DNA of 64,000 nt, taken from contig NZ_AQXI01000001.1 of assembly GCF_000376445.1 (NCBI RefSeq), positions 1,334,962-1,398,961 of the forward strand, written 5' to 3'. Origin of the DNA: Haladaptatus paucihalophilus DX253 (GTDB taxonomy: Archaea > Halobacteriota > Halobacteria > Halobacteriales > Haladaptataceae). This document shows, piece after piece, positions 7,638 through 12,016 of the stretch. A program made the translations under genes and the position numbers. The first letter of the stretch is position 1; each line of letters starts with the position of its first letter. The notes beneath the pieces were generated by a model. It had not been told where the DNA came from. It worked only from the letters and a program-made list of their open reading frames with translations, and ran no database searches.

Positions 7638-9575
7638 ATGACCGAACTAGGCGGATTCCAAGACCACGTTGCCCGCGTGGACCTTTCGGACGGGTCGGTG
7701 GACTACGAAAGCGTCGACGACGAGGACGCGAAGAAGTACATCGGCGCGCGTGGACTGGGTGTAAAGTACGTGTTCGACCAAGGCCCGGACGTGGACCCGC
7801 TCGGTCCGGACAACCTCCTGGCGTTCATGAACGGTCCGCTCACGGGGACGCAAGTCGTGATGAGCGGTCGCATCGCGGTGTGTACGAAGTCGCCGCTGAC
7901 CAACACCGTCACGGACTCGCACCACGGCGGCTGGTCGGGAGCGCGACTGAAGTGGGCCGGATTCGACGGCCTGCTGTTCGAAGGACAGTCCGAGGACCCG
8001 GTGTACGCGGTCGTCGAGGACGGCGAAATCGAACTTCGTGACGCCTCCCACCTCTGGGGCAAGACCGTCCACGAGACGCGCGACACCTTGGAAGAGGAGG
8101 TCGAAGGGTCGTACGGCAAGAACCTCTCGATGATGGCCATCGGACCGGGCGGCGAGAACACCGTTCGGTACGCCTGCATCATGAACGAGGACGACCGCGC
8201 GTCCGGTCGCGGCGGGACCGGCGCTGTCATGGGTTCGAAGGGTCTCAAGGCAATCGTCATCAAATCCACGACGAAGATGCCGAAACCGGCGGACCAAGAG
8301 ACGTTCCAGAAGGGCCACCAGCAGGCCATGCAGGTCATTCAGGAGTCCGACGTGACCGCCCCGAACGAGGGCGGCCTGTCGCTGTACGGGACGAACGTCC
8401 TGATGAACCTCACCGAAGAGATGGACGGCCTTCCGACCCGGAACGGGAAGTTCACCAGCACGCACAGCGAGGGCGAGGAGAACCCCGAGGGACGACAGAT
8501 AGACTCCGAAAACGTCTCCGGCGAGAACGTCCGCGAGAACATTCTCGTGGACGAACCCACCTGTCACTCCTGCCCGGTCGCCTGCAAGAAGGAAGTCGAA
8601 GTGCAGGTCCACCACAAGGGCGAGGACATGAACGTTCGGATGGAGTCCTACGAGTACGAATCCGCGTGGGCGCTCGGTCCGAACTCGATGAACGACGACC
8701 GCGACAAAATCGCGGCGATGATAGACCGCTGTAACGCGATGGGCATCGACACCATCGACGCTGGCAACACCATGGCGATGGCGATGGAGGCCACCGAGAA
8801 GGGCTATCTGGACGAAGGCCTCGACTGGGGCGACGCCGACACCATGATAGACATGATAGAGCGCATCGCCCAGCGCGAGGAGGGTGACGACCTCGCGGAC
8901 CTGCTCGCCAAGGGCGCGGGCCGCGCGGCGTCCGAACTCGGCGACCCCGAGATGTCGCTCGACGTGAAGGGCCAGACGATGGCCGCCTACGACCCGCGGA
9001 GCATGAAGGGGATGGCCATCGGCTACGCGACGAGCAACCGCGGTGCCTGCCACCTGCGCGGCTACACTCCCGCCGCGGAAATCCTCGGCATCCCGGAGAA
9101 GGCCGAGCCGACCGAGTGGAAGGGCAAGGGCGAACTCTGTGCCACCTTCCAGGACCTCCACGCCATCAGCGACTCCTTCGACATCTGCAAGTTCAACGCC
9201 TTCGCGGAAGGTATCGAGGAGTACGTCCTCCAGTACAACGGCATGACCGGCCTCGACGTGACCGAGGACGACCTGCTGGAAGCCGGTGAGCGCGTCTACA
9301 ACCTCGAACGCTACTACAACAACCTCGTCGGCTTCGACGGCGACGACGACTCGCTCCCGGCCCGGTTCGTGAAGGGCCACCCGGACGCCATCCCCGGCAA
9401 GGGCGGCTCCGAGGGCTCGCTCGCCGAACTGGACGAGATGAAAGAGGAGTACTACGAGGTTCGCGGCTGGGAGGACGGCGTGGTCCCCGACGAGAAGCTC
9501 GAAGAACTCGGCATCGACGTCGGCCCCGGAACCGGCGTCAGTCGCGGCGGCGCGGCCGCTTCGGGCGACGACTAA
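7638..9575 (+). CDS. Aldehyde ferredoxin oxidoreductase-family tungsten enzyme
   Basis: 645-residue cytoplasmic enzyme of the AOR family. The family oxidises aldehydes to acids with a tungsten bis-pyranopterin cofactor and passes electrons through a 4Fe-4S cluster to ferredoxin. The cluster ligands are visible as C309-x2-C312-x3-C316 and C517. The N-terminal pterin-binding domain contains the Y-I-G-A-R-G-L-G and N-G-P-L-T-G motifs. The central domain has the R-G-G-T-G-A-V-M-G-S-K-G-L-K-A motif. Length is normal. Haloarchaea carry several paralogues, and I cannot say which substrate this one uses. No ferredoxin gene adjoins it; samp1, the MoaD-like sulfur carrier relevant to pterin synthesis, lies about 2 kb downstream on the other strand. 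Confidence 0.93.
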   Translation: MTELGGFQDHVARVDLSDGSVDYESVDDEDAKKYIGARGLGVKYVFDQGPDVDPLGPDNLLAFMNGPLTGTQVVMSGRIAVCTKSPLTNTVTDSHHGGWSGARLKWAGFDGLLFEGQSEDPVYAVVEDGEIELRDASHLWGKTVHETRDTLEEEVEGSYGKNLSMMAIGPGGENTVRYACIMNEDDRASGRGGTGAVMGSKGLKAIVIKSTTKMPKPADQETFQKGHQQAMQVIQESDVTAPNEGGLSLYGTNVLMNLTEEMDGLPTRNGKFTSTHSEGEENPEGRQIDSENVSGENVRENILVDEPTCHSCPVACKKEVEVQVHHKGEDMNVRMESYEYESAWALGPNSMNDDRDKIAAMIDRCNAMGIDTIDAGNTMAMAMEATEKGYLDEGLDWGDADTMIDMIERIAQREEGDDLADLLAKGAGRAASELGDPEMSLDVKGQTMAAYDPRSMKGMAIGYATSNRGACHLRGYTPAAEILGIPEKAEPTEWKGKGELCATFQDLHAISDSFDICKFNAFAEGIEEYVLQYNGMTGLDVTEDDLLEAGERVYNLERYYNNLVGFDGDDDSLPARFVKGHPDAIPGKGGSEGSLAELDEMKEEYYEVRGWEDGVVPDEKLEELGIDVGPGTGVSRGGAAASGDD

Positions 9576-9842: not shown

Positions 9843-11057
9843 ATGACTGACCGGTCTTCCGACTCTCCGAAATTCGAAACGATGGCGGTGACGCACGCCG
9901 AACAACCGCCCCACCACGAGCGAGCAGGCGACGTGACGATGCCCATCCACCTCGCATCGACCTACGAAGCTGGCGGCATCGACCCGGACGTCGGGCTGGA
10001 GGATTTGGACCCCGACGAGAACCAGTATCTCTACTCGCGGCTCGCCAACCCGACCCGCCACGCGCTGGAACAGCGCATCGCGGCGCTCGAAGGCGGCGAC
10101 TACGGCATGGCCTTCGCCTCCGGCACGTCCGCCATCGTCGCCACGATTACGGCGTCCGTCACCCCCGGCGACCACGTCGTCGCGTTCGACGACCTCTACG
10201 GCGGAACGAAGACGATGCTCAAGGACCTGTTCCGAGAGCGCCTCGACGTTGCCGTCGACTTCGTGGACGCCCGCGACACCGACGCCGTGTCCGACGCCGT
10301 GCGCGACGAAACCGCACTCATCTGGATGGAGACGCCGACGAACCCGCTCCTCCGACTCTGTGACATCGAAGCCATCGCTTCGGTCGCCGAGTCGGTCGAT
10401 GCGACCCTCGGCGTGGACAACACCTTCCTTTCGCCGTACTTCCAGCACCCGCTCGAACTCGGTGCCGACGTCGTCGTCCACAGCACGACGAAGTACCTGA
10501 ACGGCCACAGCGACTCCATCGGCGGCGCCGTCGTCACCGACGACGCCGACCTCGCCGACGAAATCGGCTTCCTCCAGCAGGTCGGAATGGGTAACATGCT
10601 CGCGCCCTTCGACGCCTTCTTGACCCTCCGCGGGTTGAAGACGCTCCCGCTCCGCATGCGTCAGCACGAATCCAACGCCGCCGAAATCGCCGCCTATCTG
10701 GACGAACACGAGAAGGTTTCGACCGTCTACTACCCCGGACTCGAATCCCATCCGCAGTACGACCTCGCCCAGCGACAGATGGAGGGTGCCGGTGGCGTCC
10801 TCTCGTTCGAACTCGACGGCGACTTGCCCGACGTGGAACGCTTCGTCGCCGAGCTGAACGAGTTCCCGTTGGCCGTCAGCCTCGGCGGCGTGGAGTCGCT
10901 CATCGAACACCCGGCGAGCATGACCCACGCGCCGCTGACGCCCGAGGAGCGCGCCGAAATCGGTATCTCGGATTCGCTGCTCCGCGTCTCGGTCGGCGTC
11001 GAACACCCGAAGGACCTCATCGCCGACTTGGAGTCCGCGTTCGACGCGATAGAATAG
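9843..11057 (+). CDS. PLP-dependent trans-sulfuration enzyme (cystathionine gamma-synthase/lyase family)
   Basis: 404-residue Cys/Met-metabolism PLP enzyme. The PLP lysine is K217 in the H-S-T-T-K-Y-L-N-G-H motif. Other family signatures are Y-S-R-L-x-N-P-T near residue 60, F-A-S-G-T-S-A near 97 and the G-G-V-E-S-L-I-E-H-P segment near 350. The family covers cystathionine gamma-synthase, gamma-lyase and beta-lyase, and the exact reaction cannot be fixed from sequence alone. ATG 9843 gives the expected N-terminus. It is a single gene between convergent neighbours. Confidence 0.92.
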   Translation: MTDRSSDSPKFETMAVTHAEQPPHHERAGDVTMPIHLASTYEAGGIDPDVGLEDLDPDENQYLYSRLANPTRHALEQRIAALEGGDYGMAFASGTSAIVATITASVTPGDHVVAFDDLYGGTKTMLKDLFRERLDVAVDFVDARDTDAVSDAVRDETALIWMETPTNPLLRLCDIEAIASVAESVDATLGVDNTFLSPYFQHPLELGADVVVHSTTKYLNGHSDSIGGAVVTDDADLADEIGFLQQVGMGNMLAPFDAFLTLRGLKTLPLRMRQHESNAAEIAAYLDEHEKVSTVYYPGLESHPQYDLAQRQMEGAGGVLSFELDGDLPDVERFVAELNEFPLAVSLGGVESLIEHPASMTHAPLTPEERAEIGISDSLLRVSVGVEHPKDLIADLESAFDAIE

Positions 11058-11488: not shown

Positions 11489-11743
11489 CTATCCGCCCGC
11501 CCGCATCGCTTTCTGTGAAAACTTCGGGACGACGGAATCGAGGGACTCCTCGTCGCCCTCGAAGGCGATGGTCACCTCGGTCAACTCCACCGTCGGGCCG
11601 ATGCTCACCGTCTCCGAGGAGAGCGAGGCCTCCCACTCCTCGGCGACGACTGTCCCGTCGTCACGTACCTCCCCGCCGAGGTTTTCGAGGTACTTCCGCG
11701 CGAGTCGTTCACTGATTCCACGGAAGGACTTCTCGCGTCGCAT
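11489..11743 (-). CDS. Small MoaD-associated protein (DUF1952-like), ends in Gly-Gly
   Basis: 84-residue protein whose ATG directly abuts the samp1 stop codon, so the two are almost surely translated from one mRNA. The pattern resembles what I remember of the C-terminal domain found in MoaD-related proteins (DUF1952). It begins with a basic R-R-E-K-S-F-R-G helix, has short beta strands, and ends in F-S-Q-K-A-M-R-A-G-G. The family match is from memory and moderate in certainty. Like SAMP1 it ends in a diglycine, which may be coincidence or may mark a second activatable tail. Confidence 0.75.
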   Translation of the reverse strand: MRREKSFRGISERLARKYLENLGGEVRDDGTVVAEEWEASLSSETVSIGPTVELTEVTIAFEGDEESLDSVVPKFSQKAMRAGG

Positions 11744-12016
11744 CTATCCACCTGCAACCGGCGGGAAGATGCTCAGCCTGTCGCCGTCCGAGAGGGAGGT
11801 CTCTCGACCGTCGATGTGCACGACGTCCTTTCCGTTTCGCATGATGGAGAGCTGTGGTCTGAGGTCGCCGTCCTCGAAGAAATCGAGGTCGTGGTACTCC
11901 TCGGTCAGCGATTCGAGCACCTCGCCGACCGTCGTATCGTCCTCGTACTCCCGTTCCAGCGTCTTCTGTCCGACCGCCTCGCGGAAGTTCGCGAAGAACC
12001 GAAGGGTGAGTTCCAT
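11744..12016 (-). CDS. samp1: Ubiquitin-like small archaeal modifier SAMP1 / MoaD-family sulfur carrier
   Basis: 90-residue beta-grasp protein ending in the required C-terminal Gly-Gly (F-P-P-V-A-G-G). SAMP1 proteins act as ubiquitin-like modifiers after adenylation by the E1-like UbaA. In Haloferax they also serve as the MoaD sulfur donor for molybdopterin. The start M-E-L-T-L-R-F-F-A gives the classic first strand. It leads a minus-strand operon with the 84-aa and 122-aa genes. Pterin chemistry is relevant locally: an AOR-family enzyme and a sulfite-oxidase-family molybdoenzyme are both in this window. Confidence 0.93.
   Translation of the reverse strand: MELTLRFFANFREAVGQKTLEREYEDDTTVGEVLESLTEEYHDLDFFEDGDLRPQLSIMRNGKDVVHIDGRETSLSDGDRLSIFPPVAGG

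Follow-up and report, generated by a model that had tools for sequence, protein, structure and literature searches.

A small Gly-Gly-ending haloarchaeal protein encoded beside SAMP3: a probable partner in an AOR-linked function

The gene pair and its surroundings

Two small genes that abut without an intervening base lie on the minus strand of contig NZ_AQXI01000001.1 of Haladaptatus paucihalophilus DX253, within the stretch of 64,000 nucleotides analysed here (the window; positions 1,334,962 to 1,398,961 of the forward strand), to which coordinates refer unless another locus is named. The upstream gene (11744..12016, minus strand) encodes a SAMP3-type, MoaD-family ubiquitin-like protein of 90 residues ending in FPPVAGG, recognised by a Pfam ThiS match (3.3e-18), by NCBIfam and by its scores against PDB entries; the downstream gene (11489..11743, minus strand) encodes an 84-residue protein, hereafter P84, which ends in SQKAMRAGG and is defined by its open reading frame, a homologue search, an AF2 model and a fold match. 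The SAMP3 stop and the P84 start meet at 11741..11746 (minus strand) with zero gap; the bases around them, GTT GCA GGT GGA TAG ATG CGA CGC, spell V A G G stop M R R, and because TAG directly abuts ATG, P84 begins on the very next base and the reading frame of SAMP3 is kept. The preliminary description of this DNA, which had pointed to two abutting small proteins both ending in Gly-Gly, is borne out on the minus strand and in frame.

Downstream of P84 lies its usual neighbour, the gene for a 122-residue protein (P122; 11101..11469, minus strand), identified as an open reading frame and by gene order across loci; searches of Pfam and NCBIfam at E up to 1 gave no match for either P84 or P122. P122 shares locus and strand with 89 of the 101 Gly-Gly-ending P84 copies collected here, and SAMP3 with 88 of the same 101. 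It was not found near some P84 copies, such as those of loci L024, L045, L052 and L085. On the plus strand, a gene for a PLP enzyme of Cys/Met metabolism (Pfam; 9843-11057) and one for an AOR-family enzyme of 645 residues (7638..9575; Pfam AFOR_N 2.5e-76, AFOR_C 6.4e-119) follow, the end of the latter being 1.9 kb from P84. This enzyme is one of three AFOR_N proteins in the genome, and its subtype is present in 36 of 37 pair-bearing genomes, the remaining one (G345, a fragmented genome) showing the other subtype alone.

The preliminary description had named the 90-residue neighbour SAMP1, a label that does not hold. The protein scores 112 bits against 2m19, an entry entitled “Haloferax volcanii HVO 2177 protein”, versus 55 bits against SAMP1 (3po0), and the genome encodes a separate SAMP1 (L158; 101 bits against 3po0) that ends in PPVSGG. 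HVO_2177 is annotated as SAMP3 in passages of PMC4500146, and PMC7305310 places its Ala90 just before two C-terminal glycines, in agreement with the 92-residue match in 2m19. The SAMP1 label is also given by the NCBIfam model NF041918, which the window's protein passes (97 bits, cut-off 60). A SAMP3-type gene carries the name “ubiquitin-like small modifier protein 1” in one annotated record (L110, 5031-5336).

Tail and predicted fold of P84

Relatives of P84 were detected by homologue search in 300 of the 391 genomes of the class, so the observation is not a chance one. Among 108 copies from 108 loci, a count that includes the window's own P84 and some repeats, the tails are RAGG in 99, RSGG in two, RAPG in six and RASG in one, that is, 101 Gly-Gly ends and seven PG or SG ends, with no copy running past its tail. 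Copies whose profile match stops before position 80 were set aside; these are the second copy of G017, which has an in-frame TAG (L107), and partial pieces at L069 and L104, the other piece of each of these last two loci being counted. At L069 (1501-1875), a long low-complexity insert interrupts a P84 copy that retains its RAGG end. Conservation of the Gly-Gly in orthologues, on which the preliminary description had let its case turn, is complete in the 88 copies that have SAMP3 on the same locus and strand (88/88), and the dipeptide ends 13 of the 20 remaining copies. The codons of the terminal KAMRAGG and the stop occupy 11489..11512 (minus strand). All of 98 distinct Gly-Gly-ending copies share K78, A79 and R81; in this set, the invariance of G83 and G84 is itself due to selection for Gly-Gly ends.

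The two members of the pair differ in what may follow the tail. Residues beyond it occur in 0 of 104 distinct P84 copies versus 43 of 86 distinct SAMP3 copies (87 with repeats, leaving out the broken frame of L067 and weak partial matches at L012, L013, L042 and L043). VAGG itself is present in all 86; 31 copies continue past it for 1 to 47 residues and 12 run on into P84. Of the SAMP1-type proteins on the fetched loci, 3 of 13 extend past their Gly-Gly. The PG- and SG-ending copies of P84 (six distinct sequences) form a single paralogous clade (support 0.994), exemplified by RAPG or RASG ends at L002 (1501-1746) and G000:C2:290701-290946; no SAMP3 lies beside them on the fetched loci, and one copy is found in the window's genome. 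All seven stop at the end position of P84, so a fixed end by itself is no proof of tail chemistry. A further haloarchaeal MoaD-like type (L162, L168, L169, L171) ends in PSVYGG, with extra residues after it in three of the four.

The AF2 model of P84 (mean pLDDT 93.9) displays a beta-alpha-beta-beta-alpha order, in which the last helix reaches residue 82 and leaves two residues, the glycines, beyond it. Its best fold match is to residues 87-165 of 1v8c (Z 11.7, rmsd 1.6 over 79 residues; the next match has Z 8.1), a MoaD-related protein of Thermus thermophilus whose second domain is the Pfam family DUF1952 (PF09189). The fold-search neighbours of P84, namely this second domain, KA1, the C-terminal part of phosphoglucomutase and PYR/PYL, are taken here to belong to SCOP's TBP-like fold. 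Since the model departs from the beta-grasp fold and P84 has no ThiS match, an ordinary beta-grasp second modifier is rejected on the predicted fold; the Gly-Gly end is shared with SAMP3 (HVO_2177) and SAMP1 of Haloferax, but those are beta-grasp proteins and the P84 model is not.

By sequence, P84 alone retrieves no believable match in the PDB, whereas a profile built from short-linker SAMP3-P84 fusions (see below) together with P84s aligns to residues 4-168 of the 168 of 1v8c (E 3.5e-19). One fusion, L077, scores 18.4 bits against DUF1952 (E 0.0019), in the right register and under the Pfam cut-off of 22; the window's P84, the fusion L046 and L045 have no DUF1952 match, and the window's genome contains none. 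By comparison of the predicted model with the crystal structure, P84 nevertheless has the fold of the Thermus domain, and the same place behind a MoaD domain ending in PPVAGG; on its model, it is thus a stand-alone relative of the DUF1952 domain, though under the Pfam cut-off. In 1v8c, the two domains are joined without a linker and the chain closes with SRGGG, so that a bacterium, Thermus, repeats both the MoaD-DUF1952 order and the terminal Gly-Gly. A search with the first domain of 1v8c returned 23 records, of which two were looked at.

Fusions and co-inheritance with SAMP3 and AOR

At 12 loci, in 12 genomes and 9 genera, SAMP3 and P84 are encoded by one open reading frame in the order SAMP3-VAGG-linker-P84-RAGG, and in seven of these 12 the linker is free of ATG, GTG and TTG codons. 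As the loci were not drawn at random (the closest were taken, then chosen distant ones and some with long frames), the proportion 12 of 108 does not measure how often fusion occurs; L067 is left out of the 12. The AF2 model of a natural fusion contains two good domains in an arrangement that is not to be trusted (pTM 0.58); it predicts no SAMP3-P84 interface and overlays poorly on the whole of 1v8c (rmsd 16.8, TM 0.44-0.48). JAMM-family proteins are present in 13 of 13 genomes, these being the 12 with fusions and the window's own, a figure that has no comparison set and does not discriminate.

Across the 391 genomes of the class, SAMP3 and P84 are found together in 299 and both missing in 91; SAMP3 alone occurs in none and P84 alone in one (390/391 agree). 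The presence of a SAMP3-type protein was called at a best E < 1e-20, within a clean gap that extends from 8.2e-23 to 5.8e-16. The single P84-only genome (G389), with a completeness of 82%, shows a disrupted SAMP3 reading frame beside P84 (L067). Among 294 genomes drawn from the phylum, P84 matches 39 of 53 members of the window's order and 0 of 241 others (6 labelled “same phylum”, 235 unlisted); beyond the phylum, plasmids were searched, with P84 in three haloarchaeal records. On a Haladaptatus plasmid (L111, 4660-6934), two MoaD-like genes adjoin an AOR gene whose annotation mentions the C-terminal domain alone.

The pair is also inherited together with AOR-family enzymes. In a set of 79 genomes that were chosen and not random (14 genera with both states; 37 pair-bearing genomes and 42 of the 91 pair-less ones), AFOR_N is found in all 37 of the former and in one of the 42 latter, this exception (G366) being 88% complete. 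MoaE is found in 37 of 37 and in 40 of 42, respectively (77/79 in total), and because it is present with or without the pair, a MoaE-linked molybdopterin role for the pair is not favoured. Of the 35 genomes with coordinates for both, 30 have the AOR gene no more than 11 kb from the pair, three have it on another contig and two far away (G045, G273); SAMP3 coordinates were used where those of P84 were absent, and two of the 37 genomes (G361, G345) had neither. DUF1952 is not matched in the AOR-bearing genomes of E. coli, M. jannaschii and M. acetivorans, which speaks against the AOR link, but as a weak control, Haloferax and the window's genome being unmatched too.

A likely role for the pair and the use of the P84 tail

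The SAMP3-P84-AOR co-inheritance is most simply accounted for if SAMP3 and P84 cooperate in serving the tungsten AOR, and the assignment of P84 as a partner of SAMP3 in an AOR-linked function can be made with good confidence. That P84 is dedicated to SAMP3, and that the pair serves AOR-family (tungsten) enzymes at a cofactor step, is the preferred explanation and a reasonably probable one. The preliminary description had offered, as its second option, a dedicated SAMP1/MoaD partner: the partnership is well supported by comparison, on 390/391 co-inheritance, 12 fusion loci and the two-domain relative of Thermus, and its identity shifts from SAMP1 to SAMP3. From the observed gene order, fusions, tail conservation, co-inheritance and predicted fold, we infer physical binding of the two proteins, a role in the cofactor pathway, JAMM cleavage of the longer precursors and a use of the tail. 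In this scheme, the single ThiF-family E1 of the genome, presumably UbaA, would adenylate the VAGG tail of SAMP3, to which sulfur would then be added, while P84 would dock on SAMP3 and direct it to the making or loading of the tungsten pterin cofactor of AOR; SAMP1 and MoaE would serve general molybdopterin. Where SAMP3 is extended or fused, a JAMM protease would cut after VAGG to release free SAMP3 and a P84 with its own RAGG end. HvJAMM1 of Haloferax is described in PMC4443979 as cleaving a linear SAMP1-MoaE fusion exactly after the Gly-Gly. The tail of P84 would most likely enter a Gly-Gly pocket of the UbaA, MoaE or JAMM type, and such a use is the proposed reason for its retention as a free end. 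PMC4443979 also reports that SAMP3 modifies MoaE, a regulatory role that is outside the preferred model, and, judging by DMSO respiration, that SAMP3 has no direct part in making molybdopterin.

How the tail would be used is where the readings part. In one of them, which comes close to an even chance without reaching it, the tail would be a docking or mimic tail that is never itself activated but, seated in a UbaA, MoaE or JAMM pocket, would regulate or orient SAMP3. The tail directly follows a helix in the predicted model, the invariant K78, A79 and R81 beside the glycines suggest a binding motif, and SAMP3 and P84 are joined in the fusions, all of which fit such docking; a docking motif, however, has no obvious need for a free C-terminus that is exactly Gly-Gly, and no interface was predicted. 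The same free end, kept in 88 of 88 SAMP3-linked copies and never overrun in 104 distinct P84s (versus 43 of 86 SAMP3s), speaks for a P84 that is itself a carrier or modifier, the first option of the preliminary description: UbaA would adenylate RAGG, leading to a thiocarboxylate or to lysine conjugates, and P84 would be a non-beta-grasp analogue of ubiquitin in the manner of Pup. The Gly-Gly end of the Thermus relative, the lone ThiF-family protein of the window's genome and the prediction of ubiquitin-like (Ubl) analogues in PMC2948915 point the same way. Against this stand the predicted beta-alpha-beta-beta-alpha fold, whose helix to residue 82 would leave two residues for the E1 channel, and the PG/SG clade, whose identical stop position (7/7) shows that tail chemistry does not follow from a fixed end. 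We know of no conjugate or thiocarboxylate of P84, which also counts against a carrier, and this reading appears unlikely. A shade more doubtful still is its extended form, a two-tailed sulfur-transfer device for tungsten enzymes in which P84 would be a second, non-beta-grasp carrier activated on RAGG, recurring in Thermus and haloarchaea and, in some species, processed from a fused precursor. Pup, for its part, is non-beta-grasp and acts through a C-terminal GG motif, but most of it is disordered and its ligase is of a different kind, whereas P84 is by prediction a well-folded domain.

Co-inheritance of SAMP3 and P84 could also come from a shared AOR gene cluster, with both proteins riding a single mobile unit and no direct link between them needed. 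MoaD genes beside AOR were described in 2006 as a possible mobile cluster, with Thermus thermophilus in a table (PMC1779556), 30 of 35 genomes have the AOR gene close by (within 11 kb), and P122 accompanies P84 as regularly as SAMP3 does; this last point, together with the 13 Gly-Gly-ending copies that have no SAMP3 on their locus, means that neighbourhood alone does not single out SAMP3. Mere passengers would not be expected, however, to be fused in frame at 12 loci and joined in Thermus, to leave no SAMP3-only genome among 391 or to be retained as a pair where AOR lies far away (G045, G273), and such passive linkage is improbable.

Parts of this picture are already in print. Makarova and Koonin described arCOG06308 in 2010 as a small TBP-like protein confined to haloarchaea, with a C-terminal GG and an adjoining MoaD-like gene, and suggested that such GG-ending TBP-like proteins are functional analogues of Ubl proteins (PMC2948915); the Ubl-analogue idea for a P84-type protein is thus theirs. 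P84 is very probably arCOG06308 (sequence gi 76801892), given the features shared in the passages of that paper (small size, haloarchaea, GG end, MoaD-like neighbour and two small uncharacterized neighbour genes), and P122 is perhaps arCOG06307 or arCOG06309. Its passages on arCOG06308 contain no SAMP3 fusions, no co-inheritance of the family with SAMP3 and AOR and no Thermus relative. According to the same paper, fusion of such TBP-like proteins to E1 is common; no such fusion of P84 was seen, the only ThiF-family frame of the genome (L186) having, by eye, just a short end after the E1 core. The literature searched, with most subscription journals outside it, yielded no account of SAMP3 fusions, full SAMP3/AOR co-inheritance, the contrast between the two tails or the Gly-Gly end of the Thermus protein.

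Characterised systems offer partial likenesses. GOR, a tungsten enzyme, is presumably a member of the AOR family. In Thermococcus kodakarensis, growth that depends on GOR requires UblB with its GG; UblB and UblC are Ubl carriers tied to tungsten enzymes, and a P84-type partner is not mentioned in the passages of that report (PMC11323500). MoaX, a MoaD-MoaE fusion, and the linear SAMP1-MoaE fusion are carrier-partner fusions cut after the Gly-Gly (PMC4326299, PMC4443979), but their partner, MoaE, has no GG end, whereas P84 does. HVO_2177 was first reported as unattached owing to a wrong start codon (PMC4500146), and a negative report on P84 conjugates would therefore need care.

The co-inheritance with P84 and AOR suggests a metabolic role for SAMP3. 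A P84 tail in use would place a Gly-Gly carrier end on an unrelated fold, which would be rare. HVO_2178 may have been among the candidates of Humbard 2010. The metabolic role can be tested in a genetic model by way of genome G040, in which SAMP3 is 99% identical to HVO_2177, P84 follows directly with a KAMRAGG end and an AOR gene lies 4.6 kb away.
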